From positions 1 through 64,000 of IMG/VR virus record IMGVR_UViG_3300043570_002364: DNA of 64,000 bases. One strand, given 5' to 3'. This document shows positions 3,008 through 24,315 of this stretch, in pieces. Source of the stretch: a virus. Within the stretch, counting starts at the first letter, position 1, and each line of letters begins with the position of its first letter. Under the pieces are notes generated by a model. It was not told where the DNA came from, ran no database searches, and worked only from the letters and a program-made list of their open reading frames with translations. Both the position numbers and the translations under genes were made by a program.

Positions 3008-3019
3008 ACTTTAAACATT

Positions 3020-5210: not shown

Positions 5211-5281
5211 ATAATTAACTTAATTTATTTTGCTATAATCAAAATAACTACTATTTTTACAAACTTAAAAAAAATTAAACC

Positions 5282-5419
5282 ATGATTAAAGCACCACTTA
5301 TTTTGGTGGCTCAATTCTTGCACTTTACCCTCATTGGGTTGCCATTGGCCATTACCCTTTACCTAACTGCTCACCTATTTTTTGAACTTAAAAGAATAAT
5401 AAAATGGATAAAAAACTAG
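5282..5419 (+). CDS. Tiny membrane protein overlapping the next gene (45 aa)
   Basis: An ATG at 5282 follows AAAAATTAAACC. The frame encodes a 45-residue peptide that is almost entirely hydrophobic up to residue 35 (FLHFTLIGLPLAITLYL) with a basic end. Its last 16 bases overlap the start of the next gene, a typical coupled arrangement. Probably an inner-membrane peptide. Confidence 0.5.
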   Translation: MIKAPLILVAQFLHFTLIGLPLAITLYLTAHLFFELKRIIKWIKN

Positions 5420-5646
5420 ACACATTAAATATGCTTTGCGATACTATGTATCGTATGTTTAAATCAGGGACTTTACCTTATTTGGATATGGAAGATTTTA
5501 TTGTGATATGGCGATCACTGGCCGAACATTGGGATATTTATATTGATGATGACCAATGGGAAGAATTTACCGAAGAAATAAATTCGGTGGCTTCCAATAA
5601 ATTCAGCGTTTTTCAGCCAATTTTTGACAAATATTTTAACAATTAA
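5404..5646 (+). CDS. Acidic early protein (80 aa)
   Basis: A soluble acidic protein (MDKKLDTLNMLCDTMYRMF, then DDDQWEEFTEEI). The ATG lies inside the end of the upstream membrane peptide gene. No family is recognised. Helical prediction by eye. Confidence 0.65.
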   Translation: MDKKLDTLNMLCDTMYRMFKSGTLPYLDMEDFIVIWRSLAEHWDIYIDDDQWEEFTEEINSVASNKFSVFQPIFDKYFNN

Positions 5647-5659
5647 ACCAATAACAATT

Positions 5660-5893
5660 ATGCAAAAAACAACAATGGAAATTCTCATTGACCAATTAAA
5701 TAAAGAGATTAAAAAACACACTTTAGGTGGAGTTAAGTACTATGGGCTAATGCACGCGAAAAGTATGGCTGAAAGTCTTATAGATGATGAAGAAAAAGAA
5801 TTAAAACAAGTTTTTAATGAAGGAGTAGCAAATCACCAGTCTTGGAGCCACGACAAATGGTTTTTTCATAAATATAAAGACACAAGAGAATAA
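5660..5893 (+). CDS. Small early protein (77 aa), possible paralogue of the next gene
   Basis: The start is placed at ATG 5660 (leader ACAATT) rather than the earlier in-frame codon at 5624, which lies within the preceding gene. The protein has an acidic helix (LIDDEEKELKQVFNEGVANH) followed by an aromatic tail (WSHDKWFFHKYKD). The gene at 5918 has the same plan (EELAIKQAFTDGEQNVWD, then EDYFNK), so the two may be diverged duplicates. Confidence 0.65.
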   Translation: MQKTTMEILIDQLNKEIKKHTLGGVKYYGLMHAKSMAESLIDDEEKELKQVFNEGVANHQSWSHDKWFFHKYKDTRE

Positions 5894-5917
5894 ATTAATA
5901 ACAATAAAAACAAAACT

Positions 5918-6175
5918 ATGGAAACACCAATTACAAGGCTATTAAAGTCCTTTCAAAAAGCAATTGACTCAATGCCTGAAACACCTGATAATATAGTAAG
6001 GGAAACCACTACGGAATGTATGAAACTAGCTGAAGCATTTTTACACTATGAAGAACTGGCAATTAAACAGGCCTTTACTGATGGTGAACAAAATGTGTGG
6101 GATAGAGATATAAATGAGCACCAATTTGAATATTCCGGCAGGGAAGATTATTTTAATAAAAACTTTAAAAATTAA
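5918..6175 (+). CDS. Small early protein (85 aa)
   Basis: An acidic helical protein with EELAIKQAFTDGEQNVWD and a C-terminal YSGREDYFNKNF. The ending GxEDYFxxxF occurs in numerous uncharacterised phage small proteins. Probably related to the preceding gene. Unknown function. Confidence 0.7.
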   Translation: METPITRLLKSFQKAIDSMPETPDNIVRETTTECMKLAEAFLHYEELAIKQAFTDGEQNVWDRDINEHQFEYSGREDYFNKNFKN

Positions 6176-6180
6176 CAATT

Positions 6181-6387
6181 ATGTCAAAATTTGAAATTGT
6201 AAAAGAAACATCTTTTACCGGCACCACGCTTTATTATATTGAAAAAGATGGCTCATACATCATGAACTCAGCCAGCATAGATTTAACTAAAGTTGAAGAT
6301 TATCTTCATAATATAATAAAAAACAAAGAGCAAGAAAAATTTAAAGAAACAATAAAAACAATTGAAATTGAAAACGAAACAGATTAG
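6181..6387 (+). CDS. Small early protein (68 aa)
   Basis: Begins 5 bp after the upstream stop (leader AACAATT). The N-terminal half looks like a beta hairpin pair (FEIVKETSFTGTTLYYIEKD) and the C-terminal half is a charged helix. Its last 26 bases overlap the following frame. Unknown function. Confidence 0.65.
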   Translation: MSKFEIVKETSFTGTTLYYIEKDGSYIMNSASIDLTKVEDYLHNIIKNKEQEKFKETIKTIEIENETD

Positions 6388-6571
6388 CGTAAAAGAATAT
6401 GCAGAAAAAATTAATCCTGATTATTTCAGGGCTAACAGGAAATACCCTAACAACCCCATAACTCAACAAACTATTAAATATAGAATAAAGCACAATCTAG
6501 GGCTTCCTGAAGTGATAAAGTATAATAGAGTAGGTAAGGTGCATGTTTTAAGCGTAAAGCATGATTTTTAA
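6362..6571 (+). CDS. Helix-turn-helix-like protein (up to 69 aa)
   Basis: The frame has no ATG. Translation would have to start at TTG 6362 or TTG 6368, coupled to the overlapping upstream gene. The sequence ISVKEYAEKI, then ITQQTIKYRIKHNLGLPEVI and a basic tail resembles the helix-turn-helix proteins (excisionase/MerR-type) that phages use as small regulators. DNA binding is inferred from this pattern only. Confidence 0.5.
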   Translation: MKLKTKQISVKEYAEKINPDYFRANRKYPNNPITQQTIKYRIKHNLGLPEVIKYNRVGKVHVLSVKHDF

Positions 6572-6588
6572 ACTAAAAAAAAATTAAA

Positions 6589-6819
6589 ATGGAAAAAACA
6601 CACGAACAAATTTTAGGTACACCAGCAGAAACTCAATCATTTAGTACATTTGGGGAATTTACTGCATATGAAAGGCAAATTATAATTGCTGAATTATATC
6701 ACAATGCTTGGTATGATCAAGAAAGGTTTGAGCAATTATATGATTTATTTAATAAGTGGGAACAAAATCCTATAAAAGCAAAGAAATTCTTAAAGGAGGA
6801 AGATCGTAATGAAAAATAA
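6589..6819 (+). CDS. Small acidic helical protein (76 aa)
   Basis: A soluble protein with YERQIIIAELYHNAWYDQER and FEQLYDLFNKWEQN. Probably all-helical. It overlaps the next start by 11 bp, and the ribosome-binding site of the next gene (6793-6800) lies within its coding sequence, so the two are probably translated in tandem. Confidence 0.65.
   Translation: MEKTHEQILGTPAETQSFSTFGEFTAYERQIIIAELYHNAWYDQERFEQLYDLFNKWEQNPIKAKKFLKEEDRNEK
6793..6800 (+). promoter_or_regulatory. Canonical Shine-Dalgarno (AAGGAGGA), exceptional in this genome
   Basis: AAGGAGGA ends 8 bases before ATG 6809, at near-optimal distance. Almost all other starts here have AT-rich leaders without any purine-rich Shine-Dalgarno, as is usual for Bacteroidetes. 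The site is coding for the upstream gene too, so chance is possible, but spacing and strength favour function. Confidence 0.55.
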
Positions 6820-6991
6820 ATACGAAATAGGACAGAATTATATTCTCAATTTAGAGAATGAAGCTTTGCGTGAAAAGGTTAAAAAATTAATTGCAGACTA
6901 CAAAGAATTAAAGAAATTGTATGAAGAGAATAACAGGATTGAAGAAGGAATGGTACAAAATGACGGGTGTAATGCAATTATTCAAGAGTGA
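6809..6991 (+). CDS. Small coiled-coil protein (60 aa)
   Basis: From residue 10 to 50 the protein is a heptad-like helix (ILNLENEALREKVKKLIADY), so probably a dimeric coiled coil. It starts behind a strong Shine-Dalgarno. The next gene overlaps its end. Role unknown. Confidence 0.6.
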   Translation: MKNKYEIGQNYILNLENEALREKVKKLIADYKELKKLYEENNRIEEGMVQNDGCNAIIQE

Positions 6992-7118
6992 TAAATTAAT
7001 TAGGGAATACAAATTTCACACTGCACATGATAGAAGAAGAATGTTGAAAATATGGAACGCAGAAGTAAAACCAAACGGGATTGATAGCTATGAATTAGTA
7101 ATAAAATTAGAAATATAA
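6960..7118 (+). CDS. Small basic protein (52 aa), last gene of the early operon
   Basis: Three in-frame ATGs (6921, 6960, 6972) could start this protein. I prefer 6960, preceded by GAAGGAATGG and with less overlap. The core is FHTAHDRRRMLKIW followed by a strand-rich end (YELVIKLEI). The frame stops at 7118, only six bases before the end of the opposing minus-strand operon at 7125, with no obvious hairpin between them. Confidence 0.5.
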   Translation: MTGVMQLFKSDKLIREYKFHTAHDRRRMLKIWNAEVKPNGIDSYELVIKLEI

Positions 7119-7124
7119 AAAAAA

Positions 7125-7295
7125 TTAATTAAGCGAAATAATATCAATATCTCCATCCGGCAGCATATCTACTTCCTTAACCATTACAACCTCAATTCCT
7201 TTGAATTGATTAAGTACCTCCAACAAAGACTCGGCATAGACCAATTTAGTTAGGTTTATGCCGTTTTTTTTGAAATATACTCTATATGCTTTCAC
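7125..7295 (-). CDS. Small protein, GTG start (56 aa)
   Basis: The frame is open as far as 7385, but that part overlaps the upstream HExxH gene by about 100 bp. A GTG at 7295 overlaps the upstream stop by a few bases, as expected for coupled translation, giving VKAYRVYFKKNGINLTKLVY and an acidic end. Probably an alpha/beta miniprotein of unknown role, at the end of the minus-strand operon. Confidence 0.5.
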   Translation of the reverse strand: MKAYRVYFKKNGINLTKLVYAESLLEVLNQFKGIEVVMVKEVDMLPDGDIDIISLN

Positions 7296-7680
7296 TTGTA
7301 ACGATTTGAGATTTGGCAAATTTCTTTTTAGCGTCCTCACACTTGCTATAAATGTACTGAACAAGGTATGCCTCATTCTCATCATTATCTACATCTAATT
7401 TAACGCCTCTTTTTGAGTATATAAAGTTCTTGGCATGTATTATCTCATGGAACATAAATTCAGTGGCAAATTTACCCTCATTTGGCAAACAAAGGTATAT
7501 ATCGTCCTTATATGTAAGACACATTGCAGCGGCAGTTTTTGCATAGTTATCTTTATTTTCATCCAATTCAAATATTTTATCCGTAAGCATGTGGGACATC
7601 TTCTCAGCTACCATTATTTTCATAGTAACATAAAAGGTTGGTATCTTATATGTATATGTCTTATATAGCTTCTGCTTCAT
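7282..7680 (-). CDS. HExxH zinc-metallopeptidase-like protein (132 aa)
   Basis: Residues 78-82 read HEIIH inside a helix (TEFMFHEIIHAKNF), the zinc-binding and catalytic signature of gluzincin/ImmA-IrrE-type metallopeptidases. A downstream acidic segment (DVDNDENEAYLVQYIY) could supply the third ligand (ENEAY, Glu). Small HExxH proteins of this kind in phages can cleave repressors or host factors, but substrate and activity are unknown. Its start lies inside the end of the GIY-YIG gene (20-bp overlap). Confidence 0.65.
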   Translation of the reverse strand: MKQKLYKTYTYKIPTFYVTMKIMVAEKMSHMLTDKIFELDENKDNYAKTAAAMCLTYKDDIYLCLPNEGKFATEFMFHEIIHAKNFIYSKRGVKLDVDNDENEAYLVQYIYSKCEDAKKKFAKSQIVTSESI

Positions 7681-8266
7681 GACTTATTCTTTTGAATGTA
7701 TAGCCACCCGTATGGTTTCTTCTGCCGCTTAAAACTGCCGATACTTTGGTTGCAGTTACATTTAATTTCTCAGCGCAATCTCTAATACCTTCATATTGGC
7801 CTAAATAAGCCCCACCCTTGAACACTTGGATAAAACCTTTAAAGTTCTTACACCTAGAACCAGTAATGCCAAAAACAGGGTTCTTTTGCCCTTTTCTGTT
7901 TATTAATAGCTCCATTAAGGCATCACTATTCTTTCTTCCTTTGTTAACCTTGCTAATCTTATCTCTTGTTTCTTGGCTTGGGTTTATGGTTCCGTCCCCT
8001 CCATTAGTTAAATTAGCTAAAGTACCATTACCTAAATCAATTCTACCGTACAATTTTATAAACTCAATTTCTTTTATTTTTGCTTGATCATAATTAATGT
8101 CATCAAATAGTATTTCTACCTCATAATCCGATTTGGCTATTATTTTTTTCCAAAGATTACTTCTTCTTGCTTTTTCATTGGCTCTTTTATTGGTCATATC
8201 ACTTCCAACACCTATATAAAATGGTTCGTTTTTATCAAGTCTAATATGTCTATAAACGTATGCCAT
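7661..8266 (-). CDS. GIY-YIG homing endonuclease with NUMOD domains (201 aa)
   Basis: The N-terminus carries the GIY-YIG nuclease core (YVYRHIRLDKNEPFYIGVGS, residues 3-22) with Asn/Glu-rich catalytic surroundings up to about residue 90. A NUMOD3-type segment follows (SQETRDKISKVNKGRKNSD, and NPVFGITG near residue 130), then a C-terminal NUMOD1-like helix-turn-helix (DCAEKLNVTATKVSAVLSG, about residues 163-181). These are standard DNA-recognition modules of free-standing homing endonucleases. It abuts the metallophosphoesterase gene and is probably a selfish insertion in this operon. Confidence 0.88.
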   Translation of the reverse strand: MAYVYRHIRLDKNEPFYIGVGSDMTNKRANEKARRSNLWKKIIAKSDYEVEILFDDINYDQAKIKEIEFIKLYGRIDLGNGTLANLTNGGDGTINPSQETRDKISKVNKGRKNSDALMELLINRKGQKNPVFGITGSRCKNFKGFIQVFKGGAYLGQYEGIRDCAEKLNVTATKVSAVLSGRRNHTGGYTFKRISHEAEAI

Positions 8267-9280: not shown

Positions 9281-9787
9281 TTATATTAGGACAAAGTTAT
9301 TTTTATCTACTTTGCCTGCGTTATGTAATGATTGCAATTCTGCAACTGATTTACCGAATGTTTTTTGGAAGTGAGGAGCATCATTAAATTTCCAATCACC
9401 ACCCCATTCGTAACCATATCTTTTAAAGATAGCTACAACTTCTTGCCAATCACTTTTGCCATCACCGTCAAAGTCTGTTTTTACATCCCAGCTAGCAGTT
9501 TCAAAAGTGCCGTTTTTATCTTTATCTACTAATAATACAATATCAATAGCTAATCCGTAATTATGGTAAGATTGTCCACCTTTAGCCTTTGTAACGATAG
9601 CCCCTGGCTTAGTTCTACCTTGTGCATATAACCCATCTTGCTCTGCAAAAGTTCTTAAAGTATAAGAAAAACGACAAGCTGCTGTACCAGTTAAGGCAGC
9701 AACAATCTCATCATACATTGTTAATGCTTCTTCTCTTAATTTAGGATGTAGGAGTTGTATTCTCTCCAGAGTTTTCTGATCTTTCAT
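9281..9787 (-). CDS. Endolysin, M15 peptidase (L-Ala-D-Glu or D-Ala-D-Ala type)
   Basis: The sequence SYHNYGLAIDIV (H75, D82) and DAPHFQ (H139) gives the zinc ligands of peptidase family M15 (VanY/CwlK-like), and R45 lies in the usual LRTFAEQ position. These enzymes cut the peptide stems of peptidoglycan. There is no signal peptide, so export depends on the holin. Length (168 aa) fits a single catalytic domain. It overlaps the holin-like gene upstream by 47 bp, a standard lysis-cassette arrangement. Confidence 0.92.
   Translation of the reverse strand: MKDQKTLERIQLLHPKLREEALTMYDEIVAALTGTAACRFSYTLRTFAEQDGLYAQGRTKPGAIVTKAKGGQSYHNYGLAIDIVLLVDKDKNGTFETASWDVKTDFDGDGKSDWQEVVAIFKRYGYEWGGDWKFNDAPHFQKTFGKSVAELQSLHNAGKVDKNNFVLI
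9292..9299 (-). promoter_or_regulatory. Bacteroidetes-type -7 element TAACTTTG
   Basis: Read on the minus strand the bases are TAACTTTG, matching TAnnTTTG. It ends 15 bases before the ATG at 9276 and overlaps the last codons of the endolysin gene. It would give the metallophosphoesterase, homing endonuclease and downstream genes their own transcript. Confidence 0.5.
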
Positions 9788-11739: not shown

Positions 11740-11964
11740 TTAAATTGTCCACTTTTTTTCAGGGCAAGCATCAGCTCCTACTGGACTGAACACCTTAGCA
11801 CTAGTCGTACAGCCGCACTTACTACAATAGTCCCTTATTGATGATTGTACCCAAAACTCACACGCCATACATATTTCCAATCTTTTTTCTGCAACCTCTT
11901 TTTGTTCTTCTGTTGGATTAATTTTAGTAGCGTAAGCTAGCAATATTTCTTTTATTTTGTTCAT
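11740..11964 (-). CDS. Zinc-ribbon protein (74 aa)
   Basis: Two cysteine pairs, CMAC near residue 33 and CSKCGC near residue 47, with a later DACPEKKW, fit a small zinc-binding domain. Similar short proteins in phages end in a CP(x)xKW motif. The N-terminal helix has no membrane features. It overlaps the glycosyltransferase gene by 4 bp, so it is translated with the glycosylation operon, but its partner is unknown. Confidence 0.7.
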   Translation of the reverse strand: MNKIKEILLAYATKINPTEEQKEVAEKRLEICMACEFWVQSSIRDYCSKCGCTTSAKVFSPVGADACPEKKWTI

Positions 11965-12824
11965 ATAAATAAATTTTGATATTCATCATGATTTCCCCAA
12001 TATGGATGAATTTGAGTTAAATTGTCTTTGTCATAGATTGAATTATGGCTAGTGAAATGAACGCCATGATTGATATGAACTGGCTCATTTTGACATTCCC
12101 ATTGGATTCTTTTCAATCTTTGGGTTTCAATCATTCCACTATTTGTAACTAAAGCATTAGGCAATATCTCTAAGCAATGCGTAATAGCATCATCTAATCT
12201 CATGGTCATTTGATGGAATGGCTCATCATTTTGCTTTCTTTTTTGCCATCCATTTTTGCATACGCCACCGTAATTCATATTGGTTAAGACTTGACCGGCA
12301 GCAAAATCAGGGAAGTCAAAGTAACCTTTTGGGTACATTACATCATGCTCTAGGAAAGAAACATAGTCATATTGCCCCATAGTTTTTGCCGTATATAAGC
12401 ATTGCATAATTTGCAACAGTTGGTTTAAATGAGATTGGCTAGTGTACCAACTATTAAATTGATGAAAAGGAACGCCTGGCATAAACTCCCAAGTACATAC
12501 AACAATATCGGCTACACCTTTGCTAGCATCTTTAATTGTATCAAGTGATTTATATATTGCAGGCCAAATGCTATGATTATTGTTATTTGAGTAAAATATA
12601 CCCAATTTTCGGTTTTTTGACTCAGGATAAACAAATGTATTGCCTTCTATAATTTGTGCCTGGAAACCATCATCAAATTGAATTTCTAAGTATTTAATTT
12701 GCCCCACAGCAGGATCTCCAATTATATCATTATTTGCTCTAATTACTAATTTGTCAGCTACTATTTTGTTTTGCAATATATTAGTACAATCTACACCCCC
12801 ATAAGTGGCTTTTGTTATTTTCAT
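11961..12824 (-). CDS. Glycosyltransferase-like protein with N-terminal beta domain (287 aa)
   Basis: Residues 1-65 form a small beta domain (KITKATYGGVDCTNIL, then GDPAVGQIKYLEI) also seen fused to carbohydrate enzymes. Residues 70-287 look like a GT-A fold with EHD at 159-161 in the position of the metal-binding DxD motif (YDYVSFLEHDVMYP). A late HINHGVHFTSHN segment may bind donor or acceptor. Part of the four-gene arm transcribed from 14649. Donor sugar unknown. Confidence 0.7.
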   Translation of the reverse strand: MKITKATYGGVDCTNILQNKIVADKLVIRANNDIIGDPAVGQIKYLEIQFDDGFQAQIIEGNTFVYPESKNRKLGIFYSNNNNHSIWPAIYKSLDTIKDASKGVADIVVCTWEFMPGVPFHQFNSWYTSQSHLNQLLQIMQCLYTAKTMGQYDYVSFLEHDVMYPKGYFDFPDFAAGQVLTNMNYGGVCKNGWQKRKQNDEPFHQMTMRLDDAITHCLEILPNALVTNSGMIETQRLKRIQWECQNEPVHINHGVHFTSHNSIYDKDNLTQIHPYWGNHDEYQNLFI

Positions 12825-12826
12825 TT

Positions 12827-13339
12827 TTATTTTTTTGCGTGCATTATGCCCATTTGATTAATATCTGTACAAAACCATCCAAATTGATTAATGGCAAATA
12901 TTTCAAATCCAAGTTCAGTTAGTTTATCTTCTAAAATTTTTTTACATTCTGGATTATGATATTCAACTGCAATCTCTTCAACTGATTTGAATTGCTCTGC
13001 TGTTATATTCTTCATGTGATGCTCATAACCTTCTATATCCATTTTAATTAACTGTGGCTCATTTTCAACAATTAAACTAGCTAAATCATCAAATTCTAAT
13101 ATTGTTTTACAGATAAAATTATGATCTACAAATGTTTCATTTAACTTAGCTATTTCACCGCATGAAGCATCTACGCCAATTACTTTTTTAGCACCTCTTT
13201 TTATAAAATATTCAGGAGTTGATTCAAATGGCTGGAATAACCATCCACACCCTAAATCTAATACCACCTTACCTTCTACGCTTTCAATATCGTTCCAATG
13301 CTCAATTGGATTTTCCGATTCAACTACTTTTGTTTTCAT
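12827..13339 (-). CDS. FkbM-family SAM-dependent methyltransferase (170 aa)
   Basis: VLDLGCG (residues 26-32) is the SAM-binding loop, IGVDAS (54-59) the acidic loop after strand 2, and KMDIEGYE (99-106) the diagnostic FkbM motif. FkbM enzymes mostly methylate sugar hydroxyls, which suits its position between two glycosyltransferase genes. It may cap or modify the glycan. It overlaps the upstream gene by 4 bp. Confidence 0.85.
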   Translation of the reverse strand: MKTKVVESENPIEHWNDIESVEGKVVLDLGCGWLFQPFESTPEYFIKRGAKKVIGVDASCGEIAKLNETFVDHNFICKTILEFDDLASLIVENEPQLIKMDIEGYEHHMKNITAEQFKSVEEIAVEYHNPECKKILEDKLTELGFEIFAINQFGWFCTDINQMGIMHAKK

Positions 13340-14268
13340 ATTAATACTGATTTTTTTTCTACTTGTTGTATAATTTCGTAATACTTTTTTGATGCCGTTC
13401 CTTCTTTTATATTTAGATTAAGATTGTAAGGCAATCTCCCCATAAATTCTGCTTTATAAAATAAACCATCAGCAGAGCTAACGACACCAGCATTATGCAA
13501 TATATTTAATCTGTCATAATCGCTTTCGGAACTAGTACCCCAGGCAAACTCTAAGTCTTGATGGCAAACTGTTTCTTTGCCCATTTTCCAACCATTCCAA
13601 AGTACTGCCCACATATCTGCACACCATATTTGTAATTCATGATATTCAGGTTCTTTAGTCTTTTTCATATTGTTTAAAACTGTAACTTCATTGTATAATC
13701 TTTCACAATCTTTTTCTACGTTCTCCCAAAAACCTGCATTAATACCTTTCATTAAATACTGGGCACCAATTGAATTAAGTTCATTATCTCTTATAACTGA
13801 CTCATCAATCCCAACTATCTCACACATCTTATCCATAACATCTTGACCTTTGCCTAATATGTAACTATGGGCTATGTACCATCTGGTATCAGATCCATAC
13901 CATTTGTCATCTTCTAAAAATTGATCCCAATTTATTGGCTTTGTAAGTACAATGTCGCAATCATGATACAATATGGCCTCATCCTCTAACTCAGGATTAG
14001 CTATAAAATGCTGCTTCAATATATTAGGGCGAATAGAAGATATATAATGTTTAGTAGCTCTGGTATCATCATAAAAAAAGAACCTAACTGGATATGCATT
14101 AGTTAATTTAACCCATTCTTCCGGTATTACATTGTTCATTTTCCAGCATACAATATCAATATTGTTAGGGTTGATGCCCATTTCTATAAAGTTATTTATC
14201 ATAACTTCTACTTGCCAAGCATAAAAAAGAGAGGTTGGCTGCGCACAAATAAATCTGAGGTTTTTCAT
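13336..14268 (-). CDS. GT-A type glycosyltransferase (310 aa)
   Basis: The motif ILYHDCDIVL (DCD at residues 103-105) fits the metal-binding DxD of GT-A enzymes, and the N-terminal MKNLRFICAQPTSLFYAWQV and C-terminal ILHNAGV segments are compatible with nucleotide-sugar binding and an acceptor site. No membrane segment. It follows the DUF6165 gene after 3 bp. Substrate unknown. It probably builds the same glycan as the neighbours. Confidence 0.8.
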   Translation of the reverse strand: MKNLRFICAQPTSLFYAWQVEVMINNFIEMGINPNNIDIVCWKMNNVIPEEWVKLTNAYPVRFFFYDDTRATKHYISSIRPNILKQHFIANPELEDEAILYHDCDIVLTKPINWDQFLEDDKWYGSDTRWYIAHSYILGKGQDVMDKMCEIVGIDESVIRDNELNSIGAQYLMKGINAGFWENVEKDCERLYNEVTVLNNMKKTKEPEYHELQIWCADMWAVLWNGWKMGKETVCHQDLEFAWGTSSESDYDRLNILHNAGVVSSADGLFYKAEFMGRLPYNLNLNIKEGTASKKYYEIIQQVEKKSVLI

Positions 14269-14271
14269 AGA

Positions 14272-14649
14272 TTAGTGTTGTTTATACGATTTTTCTTCTA
14301 ATAGTTCGGAACCATATTTTTGGTTGATTTGCTTTTTAATTATGGCTCTGACATCATTTAATTGGTAAACTTCCCTGGCTAATTCCACAAATTTTTCTCC
14401 AAAATAACTTTTATGCTCACAATCCCTTAAATCATCTTCTACTTTCCATAGCTTTTTGTTTATGTCATAAAGCTCTTGGGTAAATGGATCTGTTAGTGTT
14501 TCTGGATATTTTTTGACCAATGAAGATTTGATTAATTTCCACTCCTTCTCAATGTTTGCAAGCTTTTCGCTGTCATGTATAAAAAGCTTTTTGATGGTTA
14601 AGATGGTATATTTATCTACTACCTCACCTATGCTTACTTCTATTTTCAT
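14272..14649 (-). CDS. DUF6165 family protein (125 aa)
   Basis: The start MKIEVSIGEVVDKYTILTIK, a KLANIEKEW segment and FVELAREVYQLNDVRAIIKK match DUF6165. This small helical family is often found beside glycosyltransferase genes in bacteria. Its biochemical role is unknown. It is the first gene of the minus arm, and its ATG lies four bases downstream of a -7 element, so the mRNA is probably leaderless. Confidence 0.8.
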   Translation of the reverse strand: MKIEVSIGEVVDKYTILTIKKLFIHDSEKLANIEKEWKLIKSSLVKKYPETLTDPFTQELYDINKKLWKVEDDLRDCEHKSYFGEKFVELAREVYQLNDVRAIIKKQINQKYGSELLEEKSYKQH

Positions 14650-14653
14650 ATGC

Positions 14654-14711
14654 CAAAGGTAATAATTTTATTAATATTATTTAATTTAATTAAATTAATT
14701 ATATAGCTTTG
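14654..14711. promoter_or_regulatory. Divergent promoter pair of the glycosylation island
   Basis: Minus-strand TACCTTTG (14661-14654) ends 4 bases before ATG 14649. Plus-strand TAGCTTTG (14704-14711) ends 14 bases before ATG 14726. Both match TAnnTTTG. The 42 bases between are almost pure A/T and include a 21-bp block (14684-14704) identical to one ahead of the gene at 61015 (60988-61008). The common spacer suggests co-regulation of both arms. No clear -33 TTTG is visible for either side. Confidence 0.55.
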
Positions 14712-14725
14712 CTTAAAAATAAACT

Positions 14726-16072
14726 ATGCCGACAAGTTACCCAATATATAAAGATTTAGTTAGAAATTGGTTTTTACAGAATGTACCATTAAATACATTG
14801 ATTTTAGATGTAGGAGCTGGATGTGGCACTTATAGTGATTTACTGAGTGGTTATGGGTACAAAATGGATGCAGTGGAGATATGGAAGCCATATATTGACC
14901 AATATAAATTATGGGATAAATATTATATAGTTTATAATGAAAATATACTTACAATAGATTTTGATGTACTTGATGCGTATGATTTTTTTATTTTAGGAGA
15001 TGTTTTGGAGCATTTAACCGAAGAAGAAGGACAAGCGTTAATGCTTTTTTTAAAACAAAATAACAAAAAATATATTGTTGCAGTACCATATCAAATGGAA
15101 CAAGGTGAACATGAAGGTAATACACATGAAACCCATTTACAGCCAGACTTAACACCAGATATAATGAAGCAAAGGTACCCTGATTTAGAGCTTCTATATG
15201 GTAATAATTTTTATGGCTATTACATAAATAAAAAACCAAAACATGAAAAAGCTTTTGTACTTTATGCTGATGAGTCTTACCTTGATCTTGTGGATGCTTG
15301 TTGTCGTTCCATTAGAAATCATTCTAGCCTTCCTATATACGTTTATATGCTTAATTCTAAAGCTAAAGTAAATATTAAAAACACACAAACCATTGAATGG
15401 CAATGTGATGTAATACATTTAAAGAAAAGAAAAGAGTATATTGACAGAGAAGATAAACAAATATATAAACTACTTATTGAGAGGCCTAAGATAGTAGCAC
15501 ACGCTTTAGAGCATTTTGCTGAAACTGTTGCCTACATTGATACAGACAGCATAGCTACTGATAAAATAGATAACATGTTTGAATATTTTGATGTTGATTC
15601 TAGCTATCCTTATTTTACAGAAGGCATATATGAATATCTTATAGTTAATGGTCGTGGAGGAGCTGAAAGTAGGGAAGATTTAAGTGGTACATTGGAAGCA
15701 CCGGCTTGTGAATTATTTGGTATTAATCAACAAAATCGTGGGATGTATAAACAAACTGGTTATTTTGTAGCAGGGCAGAATTGTTTTGATTGGTTAGCTG
15801 AATGGGCTTGGATGTGTCAACACCCATCTACTATGAGAAACAATGCATGGTATGCACCTTTTAATGAGGAAACAATAGCTAATTGCCTTCTTTGGAAATA
15901 CAATCAACAAAAAGGATTGCCATACTGTTATATTAATGGATTGCATAATAAACTAGAATATAAAAACCATGAATATTTTCTTAAAGATTGGCAAAAGGTT
16001 CCATTAGAACAAAACCATTTATTTTATCATGGAGAAAAAGATATTAATAAACTAAACCAATTTAACCTATGA
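14726..16072 (+). CDS. Fused SAM methyltransferase-glycosyltransferase (448 aa)
   Basis: The N-terminal domain (about 1-165) is a class I methyltransferase, with ILDVGAGCGTY at residues 26-36 and GDVLEHL at 91-97. The C-terminal domain (about 170-448) looks like a GT-A glycosyltransferase, with YIDTDSIA (DTD at 272-274) and conserved aromatic and acidic residues later (ACELFGIN, NEETIANCLLW). The fusion suggests sequential sugar transfer and methylation of the same glycan. It overlaps the next gene by 4 bp. Confidence 0.82.
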   Translation: MPTSYPIYKDLVRNWFLQNVPLNTLILDVGAGCGTYSDLLSGYGYKMDAVEIWKPYIDQYKLWDKYYIVYNENILTIDFDVLDAYDFFILGDVLEHLTEEEGQALMLFLKQNNKKYIVAVPYQMEQGEHEGNTHETHLQPDLTPDIMKQRYPDLELLYGNNFYGYYINKKPKHEKAFVLYADESYLDLVDACCRSIRNHSSLPIYVYMLNSKAKVNIKNTQTIEWQCDVIHLKKRKEYIDREDKQIYKLLIERPKIVAHALEHFAETVAYIDTDSIATDKIDNMFEYFDVDSSYPYFTEGIYEYLIVNGRGGAESREDLSGTLEAPACELFGINQQNRGMYKQTGYFVAGQNCFDWLAEWAWMCQHPSTMRNNAWYAPFNEETIANCLLWKYNQQKGLPYCYINGLHNKLEYKNHEYFLKDWQKVPLEQNHLFYHGEKDINKLNQFNL

Positions 16073-16269
16073 CACCAAAAGAAAAAGCAGATAAACTATG
16101 TATGAGATTCTTAATAGAAACAACTACTGATATACCATATGGAGTAAATAAAATTATTGCTAAAGAATGTGCATTAATAGCTGTAAATGAAATAATGAAA
16201 GCAGGTATTAATCCTATTGATAGAGTTTTTTATTGGGAAGAAGTTAAAAAAGAAATAGAAGCATTATGA
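16069..16269 (+). CDS. Small helical protein (66 aa), related in form to the one at 61143
   Basis: An all-helical protein with AKECALIAVNEIMKAG and FYWEEVKKEIEAL. The protein encoded at 61143-61343 has the same ending pattern (FYWCNVKNALEKI) and similar length. Small proteins of this shape recur as overlapping gene partners in Bacteroidetes phages. It overlaps both neighbours by 4 bp, so all three are translated together. Function unknown. Confidence 0.65.
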   Translation: MTPKEKADKLCMRFLIETTTDIPYGVNKIIAKECALIAVNEIMKAGINPIDRVFYWEEVKKEIEAL

Positions 16270-18272
16270 GAATATTATTTTTAGCTCCTCACTTATCAAC
16301 GGGGGGATGTCCACAATTCATATTAAAAAGAATCCAAAGTCTTAAAGATTATACCGAAAATGAATATTATGTAGTTGAATATCAATGTCATAGCTTGGAT
16401 TTTGTGGTGCAACGTGATGCTATAAAAAGTTTACTAGGAGAAAACTTTACTACTTTGTATGAGGATAAAATGGAGCTATTTAAAGTAATTGAGCAGTGGC
16501 AACCAGACATCATTCATATAGACGAACCATCAGAAAGATTAGATAGACAGATGATAGCTAAACTTTATAATCCTAATAGAAAATATAGAATAGTAGAAAC
16601 AATACATGACGTTGCTTTTAATCCTAATGAAGAAAAATTATTTCATCCTGATTTATATGCTTTTTGTACGCCATACCATGAGCAAACATTTTCAAATATG
16701 GAATCTAAGTTTGTTACAATACAATATCCAATAGATAAACAAGAAGTAAATGCAGTAAAAGATGGCAAACATGTTCTTAATGTAGGCTTATGGACTAGGG
16801 GTAAAAATCAAGGAGAAGGACTTGAGATTGCTCGCAAATATCCTAACATGACATTTCATTTTGTTGGTTCCCAAGCTGGGAACTTTAAAGATTATTGGGA
16901 ACCATTGATGAAAGATATACCAGATAATGTAAAGGTATGGGGAGAAAGAAAAGATGTTGATACTTTTATGGAGATGGCTGATATTTTTATGTTTAATAGC
17001 ACTTGGGAATGTAACCCTTTAGTTTTGCGTGAGGCCATAAGCTATGGTTTACCTATCATAGCTAGAAACTTACCTCAATATGGTGATATGTTTATCAAAT
17101 ACATACAGCCAATAGATACAGATTTACGTACATTAAAATGTACATACAATGTACCTACAGACAATACCACACCAATATTTGCTTTTGCTCATGAAACAGC
17201 TTATAAGAAATTATTAGAATTACCTATTCAAAAACAAAAGGTAAAAATTATTCAGCATTTTGTGGACAATCCCTTTTTGGAAATTAAGGGGATTTCGGAT
17301 AGTAATTTTAAAGTTCAATTTTTGGATGAAAAAGGTAGTATTGCTTATGAAAACACAATAAAAGCAAACTCTTGGGTTAAATTAAACCGGCAATATTTTA
17401 CCGCATGGACAGCTAAAGTTTGGCAGGATGGACATCTGATTTACAAAAACACCTTAAATCTGACCAATAAGAGGGTTTTTATAGTATTGGATAGTAAATC
17501 CCTAGGAGATACAATTGCATGGGCGGGATATGCCTTAAAGTTCCAGGAAAAGCATAATTGCCATGTGGTAATGTCCAGTTTTTGGAATAAAATACTGGAC
17601 TACCCAGAATTAGAGTTAGTTGAGCCTGGTGCCACTGTTAATTGTTATGCCTTATATAGGATTGGATGGAAGTGGGATGAGAATAAAGAACCTGTGAGAT
17701 GCAATACTATACCATTACAGCAAGCCGCTACCAATATACTTGGATTAGATTACAAAGAAGTTAAGCCGAAGCTTAAAGATACATACGAAATACCTAGACA
17801 ACCTGTTTATGTTGCAATTGCCACTAATTCTACAATGGAATGTAAGTTTTGGACTAGGGAAGGATGGCAAACAATTATAAACTATCTACATGAATTAGGC
17901 TATGATGTGTATAATGTTTCTAAAGAAGATAACCCTTTTGATAATTGTACCAAAATAGATGATACTTCTATTGAAAATACAATGGATGTAATTGCAGGAG
18001 CTAAAATTTTTATCGGACTCAGTTCGGGATTATCGTGGGTTGCGTGGGCTTTAAATAAAAAGGTGGTAATGATTTCTAACTTTACCGAAGCAGACCATGA
18101 ATTTGATTGCTACCGAGTAACTAAGCCTGATGTATGTAATGGATGTTGGAATGATCCTAAGATTAAATTAGATCCATATTGGGATTGGTGCCCAAGAAAT
18201 AAAGACTTTGAATGTCAAAGGTCAATACCGGCTAGTATGGTTATAGATAAAATAAAAGAAGCAGGTTTTTAG
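16266..18272 (+). CDS. GT4 glycosyltransferase fused to Aah/TibC-type O-heptosyltransferase (668 aa)
   Basis: Residues about 1-300 are a GT-B, GT4-like glycosyltransferase (LFLAPHLSTGGCPQFILK at the start, NVGLWTRGKN near 180, ECNPLVLREAISYGLPII in the C-lobe). Residues about 331-668 match the autotransporter strand-loop-strand O-heptosyltransferase family (TibC, Aah): FVDNPFLEIKG, SLGDTIAWAGYAL, GLSSGLSWVAWAL, and a four-cysteine finger C624-x2-C627-x14-C642-x7-C650. In that family the cysteines bind iron and the enzyme adds heptose to Ser/Thr of autotransporters. Its likely targets here are the phage's own Thr-rich virion proteins (inferred). Confidence 0.88.
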   Translation: MRILFLAPHLSTGGCPQFILKRIQSLKDYTENEYYVVEYQCHSLDFVVQRDAIKSLLGENFTTLYEDKMELFKVIEQWQPDIIHIDEPSERLDRQMIAKLYNPNRKYRIVETIHDVAFNPNEEKLFHPDLYAFCTPYHEQTFSNMESKFVTIQYPIDKQEVNAVKDGKHVLNVGLWTRGKNQGEGLEIARKYPNMTFHFVGSQAGNFKDYWEPLMKDIPDNVKVWGERKDVDTFMEMADIFMFNSTWECNPLVLREAISYGLPIIARNLPQYGDMFIKYIQPIDTDLRTLKCTYNVPTDNTTPIFAFAHETAYKKLLELPIQKQKVKIIQHFVDNPFLEIKGISDSNFKVQFLDEKGSIAYENTIKANSWVKLNRQYFTAWTAKVWQDGHLIYKNTLNLTNKRVFIVLDSKSLGDTIAWAGYALKFQEKHNCHVVMSSFWNKILDYPELELVEPGATVNCYALYRIGWKWDENKEPVRCNTIPLQQAATNILGLDYKEVKPKLKDTYEIPRQPVYVAIATNSTMECKFWTREGWQTIINYLHELGYDVYNVSKEDNPFDNCTKIDDTSIENTMDVIAGAKIFIGLSSGLSWVAWALNKKVVMISNFTEADHEFDCYRVTKPDVCNGCWNDPKIKLDPYWDWCPRNKDFECQRSIPASMVIDKIKEAGF

Positions 18273-18286
18273 CCTGCTTTATTTTT
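18259..18286. terminator. Intrinsic terminator between convergent genes
   Basis: A 7-bp stem (AAGCAGG at 18259-18265 with CCTGCTT at 18273-18279) is followed by a T-rich run on the plus strand. The stop codon of the heptosyltransferase gene (18270-18272) lies in the loop. The opposing gene ends at 18285, so the hairpin may also serve the minus strand. Confidence 0.75.
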
Positions 18287-18746
18287 ATACGTTTGGAGAC
18301 ATAGAGTCTGGTACAGATTCTTTTTTAGGTTCTTCTTTTTTAAGAAGCTTTTCCAATAAAACAGGATAATAATCATCTGTTACTATATTGAATAACTCTT
18401 CAACATCTAAATTAGGAACTTCAATATCTTTTTCAATCCCTCCTAATTCATCTAGCTTATTAAGCAATTCTGGTCTATGATCTTCTGGTACAAGATACTG
18501 CCCATCTTTTTCTTCCCCTTTTCCCTCTGCTATCATTTCTTTAAATACGTCTAAACTGCTTTCATCAAAAGCTTTTTTTTCTTCAATTAACTTTTTGTTA
18601 AGCTGAGCATTTAAAATATACTTAATCTTAATTGACAACTTCTGCATAAGCAGACCTGTATTACTCCTTTCACCAGTTTGCTGGTTAACAACCCTTCCAT
18701 TTAATTCATCAAACAAAATGGAAATTTCCGATAATGTTAATTTCAT
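18285..18746 (-). CDS. Conserved phage protein downstream of the fibre genes (153 aa)
   Basis: A charged helical protein (ISILFDELNGRVVNQQTGE and QKLSIKIKYILNAQLNKKLI) with an acidic C-terminus. I associate the pattern with an uncharacterised phage family found in structural or late regions. It has its own promoter-like element (18763-18770). It may be an assembly factor rather than a structural protein. Confidence 0.65.
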   Translation of the reverse strand: MKLTLSEISILFDELNGRVVNQQTGERSNTGLLMQKLSIKIKYILNAQLNKKLIEEKKAFDESSLDVFKEMIAEGKGEEKDGQYLVPEDHRPELLNKLDELGGIEKDIEVPNLDVEELFNIVTDDYYPVLLEKLLKKEEPKKESVPDSMSPNV

Positions 18747-18794: not shown

Positions 18795-19133
18795 TTAAAT
18801 TAATATAGTTGTTGTAGTTGTAATTGGGGCTTGAGTTGTAGTTGTAGTTGTAGTTGTTGTAACATCACCTATAATTATTAAATTAAGTTGTTCAGCTACC
18901 CAATCCCAAGCATATTGATTTGTTTGCCAATCTGCATAAGCTTGCCCTGTCATTATAAGTTGACCTGATGCTAATGGAACCATTAAAAATGCCGTATCAG
19001 AACTTGCATTTCCAATTCCATAATAAAATGAGGCTTCTGATTTTAAATTATCACCTTGGACATAGGCATTTAAAATATTTGCTTGTACTTCTAGGCCATT
19101 AGACCATACCGTAACTGGTTCAATTTGTTTCAT
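18795..19133 (-). CDS. Virion-type protein with C-terminal Thr tract (112 aa)
   Basis: A globular domain of about 90 residues (VWSNGLEVQANILNAYVQG, WDWVAEQLNLIIIGD) is followed by a tail of nine Thr, then QAPI and five more Thr, ending in ILI. The Thr tract is a form of the stalk found in six other proteins here. It sits at the end of the fibre gene cluster, so it is probably a tail or fibre accessory protein. The Thr residues are candidate glycosylation sites. Confidence 0.75.
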   Translation of the reverse strand: MKQIEPVTVWSNGLEVQANILNAYVQGDNLKSEASFYYGIGNASSDTAFLMVPLASGQLIMTGQAYADWQTNQYAWDWVAEQLNLIIIGDVTTTTTTTTTQAPITTTTTILI

Positions 19134-19512: not shown

Positions 19513-22500
19513 TTATGCGTTTAATAATTGGTTAATCTTTGTTTCTAATAGCTCTATTCTTGCATTAGCATCTGTTAGTTTTTGATTTAATTCTTTAAAG
19601 CCCTCTATAAAGATACCAGATAAGTCATTGTAACTTACAGTAAGTGTATCAGTTTCTTCATGATAAAGTACAGCTTCAGGACAAACTTCTTGAACTTCTT
19701 GTGCGATAACACCAATGTGTGCTTTTTGTTCTGTATCTATAATCCAACTATAATAAACACCTCTTAGTTGTAATATTTTATTAAGAGCATTGTCAACAGT
19801 TACGACATTTTCTTTTAGTCTAGCATCTGATATAGGGTTAAATGAAACAGCATAAGATATTGCATCACACCATGTATCGTTTGTAATTCTATGTTTACCA
19901 TTAGTACAAGCTCTTACCCAGTCGTATGTTTCAGAACCATTTATACCAACGCAATCATTTGCTCTAGATAAATATATAGTCCAACCACTTCCATTTTCAA
20001 CATATATTCCTCCTTGTCCATTCTCAAACATTAAATTATTCCAAAAACCAGAGTTATCTATAACATTTATACCGCAATAGCCTCCTTTGTTATAACCATA
20101 AACCTCCCATGTACCATGAGATGCAGATGTGCTTCTTCTAAAATGAGATCCATAATCCTGATTGTACACTCCGCTATCCCCATAGTTTCTAAACCAACCA
20201 GTATTATATGCATTATCCATATACATAGCGGCAGGAACAGTTAAATTACCACTCATATCAAGTTGCAATCTATTAGGGCCAGCACTCCATCCACCTATTC
20301 TAAACACATTGTCAGAATCAAGGCCCATATTGATAGCATATGCTCCACTTCTATGAAATGACATTTGAGCACCATTGCCACCAGTTGAATATACAACTAA
20401 TCCTACGTTGTTAGTACTACCTGTATTACCGTTACCAATGAAGTTATTTTGAGCACCTGTCCATGTATTAGTAGTAGTAAGTCCGCCTGCATATGAAGAA
20501 TAGTTAGCAACAGTTAATACAGCACTATTAGCAGAAAATAATGAACCAGCATATAATGCTTTACTTCCTGTACCACTACCTATAATTACAGAACCTCCAT
20601 CATAATAATTTAATTCTAATGGATCTGCTCCTCTACCATTGATTGTATCTGCATAAACATTTCTACCAAGAAAACCATATGTTTGGTCTCCCGTAAATTT
20701 CATGTTATTATAAACTATATCTGAAGCAACATATAAATTATAAGCTACTCTAACATGATTATCTCCGTTACCTACTGAAAATATTTCAGTACCTCCTCCA
20801 GCACCTCCAGCAAAGTTATTATAAAATCTTGTACCACCATAAGTAGTCATTGCTCCTATTCTAATACCAGTATGATAATTTATTGTAAGCTTAGAATAGT
20901 TACCTCCTATATTTTCTTGTTCAGTAAATATACCATAAGTTCTTAATGAGGAAGCTTCTATACCACCAAATGAAATACCATTACTTGTTCCGGTTGGGCT
21001 TAAGTAAGGTGTAGCACCAGATGAGCCAAAATTAAGAATACCACTAAGATTATTTTGACTAGAACTAGTATAAACACCATTTGTTACTGTAGCAGCATTA
21101 CCTGTTGTATTATCAGAAACTCTTGCACTATCTACTCTTACACCATAAGTACCTGCTCCATTCCATCCCATTAATGTAGGGTATTGACTAGACCAAGCTA
21201 CTTGTGAATTTGTATTATTTACAGAAGTTCCGCTAGGAGAAGTACTTTGTGATGCATCAAATATAACATGAGCATTACCATAATTTTTCCAAGCCAACAT
21301 TCCAACAACATTATTAATAACTGTAGAGTCATTCCAAGTAGATTGACTTCTTGCGTACACATAAACTCCATCTGTTATTTGACTTCTAAAATGAGCAGGT
21401 GTTGATTTTCTTAAATAATTATCACTTGTATTTTGTGTCCATATTTGACCTATAGTAGGATTTTCTGAATTACCCGCAGAAGCATTAAAATAACTTCCAA
21501 AAATATAAGCACCTGTAATATTACCAGCTGCATTAATTGTTGAAATAAAAGTAGCTGCACCTGTTGTAGATAATGAAACTGCTTTAACATTCCCTGCACT
21601 CATATTAGTATATAATTCTACTATGCCATCTGAACCATAAAATGCACCATTACCTGAAGTTGAATTTGCTATTATACCAAAACGACCTGTATTATTAGTA
21701 TTATCAGTAAAAATAATATTAGAAACATAGGTATTAGATGATAATGCAGGTATAAAAAATGTAGCTGCACCTGTTGAAGCTGATATTCTTGCTCTTTGTG
21801 TATCAGCAGTTCCCCAAATTAAATCACCTCCGTTTCTAGTTCCTATTGCAAAGTTTCCGGCATAATTACTGAAAAACAAAGCCAAATTTGCTCTTGAAAT
21901 ACCAAAATCGGTACCTGTTGCAGCAGTTGAATATTGTCTGAAATAAGAAGTAGCTGTTGAACTATTGTTCCTTACCGCTATTTCCGCATAATCAGTTGAA
22001 CTATTTGTTTGTAACAAGAAAGAAGCGGCAGCAGCAGCATTATACACATGTAAATTTGCTAAAATACTAGCCCCAGTAATATTTATACCAATAGAACCTC
22101 CATTGTCATATATAGCACTATTTCCTATTGTTGTGCCTGAACCTGTAAATTTAGGGACATAACTTGTTGTACCACTAAATGAAGAACTTGTTCCACTTGT
22201 TCCTGAGCTACCATCTGTTCCTGAGGTACCTGAAGATCCATCTGTTCCTGATGTACCATTTAAACCACTAGTTCCGCTTGTTCCCGTAGTCCCTGATGTG
22301 CCACTTGTAGCAGAAGTACCTGACGTACCTGTGGTTCCACTAGTCCCTGAAACACCACTTGTGCCACTAGAGCCAGATGTCCCTGTGGTTCCGCTTGTAC
22401 CATTTGTACCGTCTAAACCAGAAGTTCCGCTTGTACCAGAAGTACCTGCGCTTCCAGTTTCACCGCTAGTTCCTGATGTACCTGTAACACCACTAGTTCC

Positions 22501-24315
22501 TGATGTACCATTTGTACCATCTATACCACTAGTTCCTGAAGAACCTGCTGAACCAGACGATCCAGTTCCACCACTTGTACCAGAACTACCGCTTGTGCCA
22601 GTAGTACCTGAAGAACCTGAAGTCCCTGTACTACCACTTGTTCCACTAGTACCACCTGTTCCGTCTGTAGCTGAAGTACCGCTAGTACCACTTGTGCCAC
22701 TAGTGCCTGTGGTTCCAGATGTCCCAGATGTAGCAGATGTACCGCTAGATCCACTTACCCCACTGCTTCCACTTGTTCCTGTGCTACCACTTGTTCCACT
22801 AGTTCCACCAACACCAGAAGTTCCTGAAGAACCACTTGTTCCTGAAGGAGCATTAAATGTGGTTTGTGCGTATGAATAATTACTTGTTCCTTCTGTATAG
22901 AATGTAATATTTTTAGATGAACCACCAGCATGCCTAACATATATTTGACAATAAAGCCTATCAGTAGAAAGTATTGCTGTTTGAGGCAAAAATAAATCCA
23001 TGAAAAACTCTCTAATAACATTACTTGTCATTGATTCAGTATCAACATTAGTTGTTCCAAGAAGTGTTGCACTTCCACCAGTAGAATTACATTTGTAAAA
23101 CTCTACATCCACCTGCAAAGTGTCATTTGCATTCATTGACAAATGTAAAACCCAAGCCCAAAGCCCTGAAGGTATATTTGTTATATTTGGAATATTTGAA
23201 TCTGTAGCATAAGTAGCAAGAAGAGTTCTTGTGCTACCTGCAACGCTTGCTGTTACAGTTTGTTCAGCAGCACTAGTTCCAATTGGAGACCACTGTTTAT
23301 ATGTTGGAGTGCCAAATGCACTATCTGTATTTAATGATTGATTTAGATAATATACAAGTCCTCCAGATATACCATTTATACCTGATGTACCAGCCGTACC
23401 TGAAGTACCACTTGTACCACTTGTTCCGCTAGATCCACTAGTACCTGTAGTTCCTGACGAACCACTAGTTCCTGTTGAACCAGAAGTACCAGAGCTACCA
23501 GAAGTAGCTGAAGTACCAGAAGTTCCGCTAGTACCACCTGTACCATCCGTCCCAGATGTCCCTGAAGTACCACTAGTCCCAGATGTTCCTGAAGTTCCTG
23601 TAGTCCCACTTGTACCGGATGAGCCAGAAGTACCTGTCGTACCGCTAGTTCCTGAAGTGCCGCTTGTCCCTCCTGTTCCATCTGTTGCAGAAGTTCCAGA
23701 AGTGCCGCTTGTCCCACTTGTACCATCACTACCACTTGTACCACTTGTACCTGAAGTCCCTGACGTTCCAGAAGTTCCACCTGTTCCATCTGTCGCACTC
23801 GTACCACTAGTTCCTGTAGTACCGCTTGTACCACTGCTGCCGCTAGTTCCTGAAGAACCAGAAGTTCCAGTCGTACCGCTTGTACCACTTGTTGCAGATG
23901 TACCAGAAGTACCACTTGTACCACCTGTGCCATCCGTACCACTAGTCGCAGAAGTTCCAGAAGTTCCAGTCGTACCACTTGTGCCTGTGGTTCCTGATGT
24001 ACCACTTGTACCACCAGTACCATCTGTTGCTGAAGTACCACTTGTGCCGCTAGTACCTGATGTACTTGAGCTACCAGAACTACCAGAGCTACCAGAACTA
24101 CCTGCTGTTGCAGAAGTCCCAGAGGTTCCAGATGTACCTGTAGTGCCTGACGTACCAGAGGTTCCTCTAGTCCCGGAAGTGCCAGAGGTTCCAGAAGTTC
24201 CGGATGTGCCTATAGTGCCAGAAGTATCAGCAGATACTAAACCACCTACAGCTACCAAGATACCGTTTTCTTTTCTTAATTGAAATTCTCCAGTAATTAA
24301 ATTTTGTACGGCCAC
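19513..24315 (-). CDS. Giant collagen-like tail fibre with S74 intramolecular chaperone (1600 aa)
   Basis: Residues about 33-320 and 490-715 are Gly-Xaa-Yaa triplets, mostly GTS, GSS or GTT, which should form collagen-like triple helices. A compact domain (about 320-490) lies between them. The remainder is a beta-rich receptor-binding-type region. The C-terminus (about 1490-1600) is a peptidase S74 domain: ISDARLKEN with S1496-D1497 at the expected cleavage site, then a helical ELNQKLTDANARIELLETKI trimerisation tail. Such domains fold trimeric fibres and then cut themselves off. The Ser/Thr-rich triplets are possible glycan sites. Confidence 0.92.
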   Translation of the reverse strand: MAVQNLITGEFQLRKENGILVAVGGLVSADTSGTIGTSGTSGTSGTSGTRGTSGTSGTTGTSGTSGTSATAGSSGSSGSSGSSSTSGTSGTSGTSATDGTGGTSGTSGTTGTSGTTGTSGTSATSGTDGTGGTSGTSGTSATSGTSGTTGTSGSSGTSGSSGTSGTTGTSGTSATDGTGGTSGTSGTSGTSGTSGSDGTSGTSGTSGTSATDGTGGTSGTSGTSGTTGTSGSSGTSGTTGTSGTSGTSGTSGTSGTDGTGGTSGTSGTSATSGSSGTSGSTGTSGSSGTTGTSGSSGTSGTSGTSGTAGTSGINGISGGLVYYLNQSLNTDSAFGTPTYKQWSPIGTSAAEQTVTASVAGSTRTLLATYATDSNIPNITNIPSGLWAWVLHLSMNANDTLQVDVEFYKCNSTGGSATLLGTTNVDTESMTSNVIREFFMDLFLPQTAILSTDRLYCQIYVRHAGGSSKNITFYTEGTSNYSYAQTTFNAPSGTSGSSGTSGVGGTSGTSGSTGTSGSSGVSGSSGTSATSGTSGTTGTSGTSGTSGTSATDGTGGTSGTSGSTGTSGSSGTTGTSGSSGTSGGTGSSGSAGSSGTSGIDGTNGTSGTSGVTGTSGTSGETGSAGTSGTSGTSGLDGTNGTSGTTGTSGSSGTSGVSGTSGTTGTSGTSATSGTSGTTGTSGTSGLNGTSGTDGSSGTSGTDGSSGTSGTSSSFSGTTSYVPKFTGSGTTIGNSAIYDNGGSIGINITGASILANLHVYNAAAAASFLLQTNSSTDYAEIAVRNNSSTATSYFRQYSTAATGTDFGISRANLALFFSNYAGNFAIGTRNGGDLIWGTADTQRARISASTGAATFFIPALSSNTYVSNIIFTDNTNNTGRFGIIANSTSGNGAFYGSDGIVELYTNMSAGNVKAVSLSTTGAATFISTINAAGNITGAYIFGSYFNASAGNSENPTIGQIWTQNTSDNYLRKSTPAHFRSQITDGVYVYARSQSTWNDSTVINNVVGMLAWKNYGNAHVIFDASQSTSPSGTSVNNTNSQVAWSSQYPTLMGWNGAGTYGVRVDSARVSDNTTGNAATVTNGVYTSSSQNNLSGILNFGSSGATPYLSPTGTSNGISFGGIEASSLRTYGIFTEQENIGGNYSKLTINYHTGIRIGAMTTYGGTRFYNNFAGGAGGGTEIFSVGNGDNHVRVAYNLYVASDIVYNNMKFTGDQTYGFLGRNVYADTINGRGADPLELNYYDGGSVIIGSGTGSKALYAGSLFSANSAVLTVANYSSYAGGLTTTNTWTGAQNNFIGNGNTGSTNNVGLVVYSTGGNGAQMSFHRSGAYAINMGLDSDNVFRIGGWSAGPNRLQLDMSGNLTVPAAMYMDNAYNTGWFRNYGDSGVYNQDYGSHFRRSTSASHGTWEVYGYNKGGYCGINVIDNSGFWNNLMFENGQGGIYVENGSGWTIYLSRANDCVGINGSETYDWVRACTNGKHRITNDTWCDAISYAVSFNPISDARLKENVVTVDNALNKILQLRGVYYSWIIDTEQKAHIGVIAQEVQEVCPEAVLYHEETDTLTVSYNDLSGIFIEGFKELNQKLTDANARIELLETKINQLLNA

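Follow-up and report, generated by a model that had tools for sequence, protein, structure and literature searches.

What does a bacterial virus do with a glycosyltransferase (GT) of the TibC/Aah type, and which protein would receive the sugar? The question is raised by a locus in IMGVR_UViG_3300043570_002364, the 66,244-base record of an uncultured virus of bacteria, of which a stretch of 64,000 bases (the window) was analysed. A sequence-only reading of this stretch had proposed an island of modification genes that glycosylates the virion, and every open reading frame (ORF) that it named was found in place. The evidence now assembled makes it probable that the phage encodes its own O-glycosylation machine for a collagen-like fibre built of Gly-Thr-Ser (GTS) triplets. 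Two genes are central to this proposal:

16266 to 18272, plus strand: GT4::TibC-like fusion of 668 amino acids (aa), with the GT4 domain at residues 157-278 and the TibC-like half at about 326-668, assigned from profiles, fold and residues
19513 to 24315, minus strand: collagen-like fibre of 1600 aa with a C-terminal S74 chaperone, the proposed acceptor

Family, fold and residues of the enzyme

The GT4 domain was recognised by its Pfam profile (E = 1.6e-12), and residues 344-665 match the profile TIGR04414 (hepto_Aah_TibC) with 222.5 bits and E = 7.9e-66, the cut-off being 200 bits. Residues 368-659 also match TibC 4rap (phmmer E = 2.9e-40). An AlphaFold2 model computed with 27 relatives as input, with a mean predicted local distance difference test (pLDDT) score of 85.5, was compared with the PDB using Foldseek. 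The top 21 matches are TibC crystal structures (4rap/4rb4; E = 2.7e-24, TMt 0.73-0.80), with GT4 enzymes next, and the model has both the N-terminal beta-barrel (strands at 327-396) and the GT-B-like core of TibC. No TibC-type family of PHROGs was matched by the protein. The sequence-only reading had assigned the C-terminal half to TibC/Aah and suggested profile and structure searches as a check; both bear the assignment out.

Key residues were mapped from the TibC structure paper (eLife 03714). Asp110, the catalytic base of TibC, corresponds to D415, Thr226 to T523, Lys230 to K527 and Trp305 to W591. D415, T523 and K527 are invariant in 80/80 distinct viral sequences, the set used for residue and tree comparisons, and W591 is kept in 78 of them. 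The four cysteines C624, C627, C642 and C650, already singled out as an iron finger, are all present and likewise invariant in the 80 viral homologues, and a four-Cys iron finger is predicted from their positions. By profile and modelled fold, the protein is a member of the TIGR04414 family, in a divergent subfamily.

Distribution of the enzyme

Relatives are encoded by at least 575 viral stretches in a profile scan of IMG/VR, from which the 80 distinct sequences were taken. In an annotated phage collection, four records carry relatives, one of them an isolate, the Microcystis phage Mel-JY01. The possibility that the enzyme is a chromosomal gene of the host class was rejected, as only one of 295 Bacteroidia genomes scored above the cut-off; this was a reference genome chosen for carrying the enzyme, and the other 294 fell below. 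Within the window's terminase clade, 19 of the 20 records longer than 45 kb carry the enzyme above the cut-off, a count that leaves out a partial match at the end of a 45.3-kb record. The exception (L112/L113, IMGVR_UViG_3300032323_002596) is 59.9 kb long and has two opposed terminase copies, a possible palindromic misassembly.

A tree built from 95 sequences places 76 of the 80 viral ones in a single clade, with L009, L010 (Mel-JY01), L011 and L012 outside it. The viral contig L009 has two adjacent TibC-like genes, at 5086-6276 and 6273-7136.

Pairing of the enzyme with GTS repeats

Records were sampled by four DNA patterns independent of the enzyme, and the whole records were then searched for TIGR04414. 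Five GTS records that had earlier been identified as positive were excluded, as were Thr-tail records belonging to the clade of the window. The profile was found in 17/48 records picked by five GTS triplets (16 above the cut-off), in 3/40 picked by a Thr-tail motif, in 1/50 picked by five Gly-Pro-x collagen triplets and in 0/46 random records picked by an arbitrary 14-mer. The GTS set differs from the random (p = 3e-6), the Gly-Pro (p = 1e-5) and the Thr-tail set (p = 0.002; Fisher tests), between sets that differ in record length, the random records being shorter, and are unmatched in biome. A general association with collagen was rejected in view of the single positive Gly-Pro record, which also has GTS repeats.

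The reverse comparison gave a similar picture, with GTSx3 present in 22 of 24 long records chosen by the enzyme alone versus 0/46 random records (Fisher p = 3e-16), and in all 19 records of the terminase clade. The two are also close together. In 10 of the 11 records with listed positions, less than 10 kb separates the enzyme gene from the nearest listed GTS repeat; random placement would give 3.1 (p = 1e-5). In 30/43 loci, the enzyme gene is followed by a Ser/Thr-rich G-x-y ORF on the other strand; where both sides are seen (n = 29), such an ORF lies downstream in 22 and upstream in 3.

These counts bear on a different role for the enzymes, that of a host-directed moron, which would alter a surface protein or the lipopolysaccharide (LPS) of the host for superinfection exclusion or seroconversion and would sit in an insertion-prone region by the tail fibre gene. 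LPS pathways commonly use GT4 and GT9-type enzymes. Part of the cassette is encoded on the strand opposite to the structural genes, and relatives differ in its accessory genes. These points favour a moron. However, the enzyme is specific to GTS phages as opposed to Gly-Pro collagen or random ones, it is kept in nearly all long records of the terminase clade, and a similar pairing occurs in some cellular contigs and in a cyanophage of separate lineage. We regard a host-directed moron as unlikely.

The cyanophage is Mel-JY01, outside the main clade, where an 805-aa GTS collagen-like protein (635-3052 of PP395634) is encoded 1.7 kb from the enzyme gene, as the two neighbour each other in the window. 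In the cellular contigs L096 and L100, GTS/GSS collagen-like proteins lie near a TibC-like gene; L094 and L101 have SSG repeats near it, and in L099 the nearby repeat is a shorter one of Ser/Gly. Some of these contigs may have been binned as cellular although they are phage DNA. No long repeat of such a kind was found in the other cellular contigs, or in the stretches of L009 and L012 examined. In two contigs of Burkholderiales/Oxalobacteraceae, a small Ser/Gly-repeat protein (L099:6676-7023 and L101:1284-1943) lies about 1 kb from the TibC-like gene, which may thus represent a bacterial enzyme next to its acceptor.

Pairing of this kind could also arise by phylogenetic hitch-hiking, with enzyme and fibre both being old core genes of one aquatic phage group and having no functional link. 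The single clade that holds most of the viral enzymes, and the core status of the enzyme in the terminase clade, are what such a history would leave behind. But the pairing recurs in the distant branches L010, L096 and L100, L094 and L101 show it in the form of SSG repeats, and the genes lie close together within records of 57-99 kb. We hold hitch-hiking to be highly improbable.

The fibre and the Thr-tail proteins as candidate acceptors

The fibre is scored by the Pfam Collagen profile (PF01391) in nine stretches (E = 1.9e-51). Its runs of repeats hold 146 G-x-y triplets, of which 86 are GTS, without any Pro, and 129 GT-x triplets were counted in the fibre; Thr occupies X in 77% and Ser occupies Y in 72% of the triplets. 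The fibre is collagen-like by its repeat profile, and a triple helix of these proline-free repeats would be putative. Two long ORFs antisense to the GTS repeats, at 22298-22879 and 23657-24283 on the plus strand, are a composition artefact of the repeats. The peptide acceptor tested with TibC is likewise rich in Gly, Ser and Thr (eLife 03714), which was counted as support for a GTS acceptor.

The sequence-only reading had instead pointed to Thr tracts, in seven proteins, along with the GTS fibre. All seven ORFs with Thr runs were found in the window, most of them in or near structural modules:

18795 to 19133, minus strand: protein of 112 aa with a Thr tail
38874 to 43706, minus strand: three Thr-tract ORFs of the virion module (38874-39230, 39247-39840, 39885-43706), secondary candidate acceptors
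49795 to 50526, minus strand: two Thr-tail ORFs adjoining the portal gene (49795-50124, 50143-50526), secondary candidate acceptors
56259 to 56621, plus strand: ORF of 120 aa with a long Thr tail

An enzyme acting on the Thr tails of a number of virion proteins, the GTS fibre being a bystander or an additional target, would make use of these ORFs, and Thr tails are chemically plausible as O-glycan sites. Yet the enzyme is rare among Thr-tail records outside the clade (the 3/40 above), and the orthologues of the 18795-19133 protein in TibC-positive phages have tails that are Thr-rich, GTS (L004) or acidic without Thr runs, the last in L035, L050, L074, L078 and L089. Swaps of this tail between Thr-rich, GTS and acidic forms in related phages argue against Thr tails as a conserved acceptor, with extra targets possible. 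We consider the Thr tails an improbable main acceptor. The idea that the phage modifies a surface protein of its own thus gains support, while the Thr tails as its target do not, and the acceptor is likely the adjacent GTS fibre, judging from gene content and position.

Neighbouring genes

The genes around the enzyme and the fibre are as follows:

14726 to 16072, plus strand: protein of 448 aa, methyltransferase (N-terminal) and GT-A fold (C-terminal)
16069 to 16269, plus strand: ORF of 66 aa between both enzyme genes, overlapping each by 4 bases
14272 to 14649, minus strand: DUF6165 protein, assigned by family profile
13336 to 14268, minus strand: phrog_4417 protein of 310 aa, a candidate GT-A by a DxD-like motif alone
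12827 to 13339, minus strand: FkbM-type methyltransferase of 170 aa, a weak match
11961 to 12824, minus strand: conserved protein of 287 aa with no family match
18285 to 18746, minus strand: conserved ORF of 153 aa, in some relatives directly downstream of the enzyme gene and convergent with it

The 448-aa protein, correctly anticipated as a methyltransferase-GT fusion, joins an N-terminal class I methyltransferase to a C-terminal GT-A fold. Many related phages carry all three parts, methyltransferase-GT-A, GT4 and TibC-like, in one protein of about 950-1450 aa, and their union in a single polypeptide argues that the three are functionally linked. DUF6165 was also confirmed (E = 4.8e-13). Its gene is a conserved neighbour in the window's clade and accessory in other TibC-positive phages; as a general partner it was rejected, being present in 8/77 records, of which 7 are TibC-positive.

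Other assignments in the island held up in part. The FkbM methyltransferase has a match, a weak one under the cut-offs, and is present in some relatives only. Two further proteins had been called GT-A transferases. The 310-aa protein matches phrog_4417 (function unknown) strongly and has an invariant D103 and D105, while a PDB profile search with it returned nothing usable. For the 287-aa protein, which is present in some relatives only, no match was found among the families scanned; its GT-A assignment came from motifs seen by eye.

Two ORFs further upstream, both on the minus strand, were noted by eye. The first (7661-8266) resembles a GIY-YIG endonuclease, with homologues at L004:1944-2651, L005:8439-9170 and L007:1846-2442 whose positions differ between relatives, as for a mobile gene. 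The second (9281-9787) resembles an M15/VanY-type peptidase, perhaps an endolysin, and unrelated ORFs stand at its place in relatives.

Donor, proposed mechanism and points against

Several observations weigh against glycosylation of the GTS fibre by this enzyme. Arg286 of TibC contacts N1 of adenine and is required for TibC activity (eLife 03714); the window protein has T572 at this position, and 75/80 viral sequences likewise have Thr there. The beta-hairpin thumb of TibC (Phe265, Val266), needed for the dodecamer (eLife 03714), has its tip inside a gap of the TibC alignment, and the AlphaFold2 model has no hairpin there. With Arg286 replaced and the dodecamer thumb missing, neither activity nor donor can be assumed. 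The examined part of the window yielded no gene for donor synthesis. As 31/48 GTS-positive records are without the enzyme, some of them maybe fragments, the repeats do not require it; such GTS-repeat phages include G042, G044, G047, G068 and G070. Finally, 76/80 viral sequences fall in one enzyme clade, so the association could look stronger than it is through common descent or a common habitat.

Two earlier claims have to be narrowed accordingly. The fusion of GT4 with a TibC/Aah domain stands, whereas the domain is less than fully complete owing to the shortened thumb. The name heptosyltransferase fits by family, in profile and fold, but is unproven as to the donor, which the loss of Arg286 and of the thumb leaves uncertain. 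Whether donor and oligomer of TibC can be transferred to the 668-aa protein is thus uncertain from its residues, and the donor may be other than ADP-heptose. The nucleotide-sugar donor would come from the host.

Sugar transfer, its acceptor, the order of steps and their benefit are what we infer from these genes. The TibC-type half would add the first sugar from a nucleotide-sugar donor to Thr or Ser of the fibre's triplets. The fused GT4 half and the neighbouring GT-A domain would probably extend the glycan, and the methyltransferase would probably cap it. The benefit could be stiffening or hydration of the proline-free fibre, receptor binding or masking.

Comparison with known systems

The phage enzyme shares with the bacterial autotransporter heptosyltransferases (BAHT) TibC and Aah (PDB 4rap, 4rb4) the fold, the catalytic Asp, the phosphate-binding Thr and Lys, the heptose-contacting Trp and the four-Cys iron finger, together with a proposed target that is a repetitive surface protein rich in Gly, Ser and Thr. 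It differs in its fusion to GT4 and often also to methyltransferase-GT-A, in the replaced Arg286 and shortened thumb, and in its score of 222 bits, the best bacterial TIGR04414 members reaching about 550-580 bits. Its partner is a collagen-like fibre instead of an autotransporter, and no autotransporter partner appeared among the family matches of the scanned window proteins.

The closest isolate counterpart is WWT39291 of Mel-JY01, annotated only as an FkbM methyltransferase, which also combines GT4 and TibC-like domains in one protein (1226 aa, TIGR04414 317 bits). Unlike the window virus, Mel-JY01 is a cyanophage of 190 kb, and the TibC half is only about 37% identical.

Mycobacteriophages glycosylate their own virions, with capsid and tail tube modified by a phage glycosyltransferase, a precedent for masking (Freeman et al., 2023, cited in PMC12363180). 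A phage-encoded glycosyltransferase acting on its own virion is proposed here as well, from genes alone, the enzyme gene lying in a virus record and adjoining structural genes. The targets differ, and the portion of PMC12363180 available describes no link to a collagen-like fibre.

Among collagen-like proteins, BclA of the bacterial spore surface is glycosylated, which is thought to aid stability through hydration (PMC8968730). The window fibre resembles BclA in its Thr-rich G-x-y repeats and differs in belonging to a phage. Bacterial collagens commonly contain Pro and carry most of their Thr at Y, unlike the window fibre, which has no Pro and has Thr mostly at X.

Implications

A literature search, which covered few subscription journals, found no description of this enzyme type in a phage or of its link to GTS fibres, in keeping with what the sequence-only reading had stated of the enzyme type. 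Virion self-glycosylation and the TibC family are already known; the enzyme type in phages and its pairing with GTS fibres are new as far as found. A bolder extension, which we put forward tentatively and hold to be rather doubtful, is that hundreds of uncultured phages hyperglycosylate proline-free GTS fibres with a donor that is not ADP-heptose, the sugar replacing the role of proline and hydroxyproline in animal collagen and the fibre folding or stiffening only when glycosylated.

If fibre glycosylation holds true, a type of enzyme known for glycosylating adhesins in bacteria would be a common tool of aquatic phages too. It would also provide a large set of virus glycosylation systems that are defined by sequence and have a repetitive acceptor predicted for them, and would inform how collagen-like fibres poor in proline gain stability and how phages recognise their hosts.

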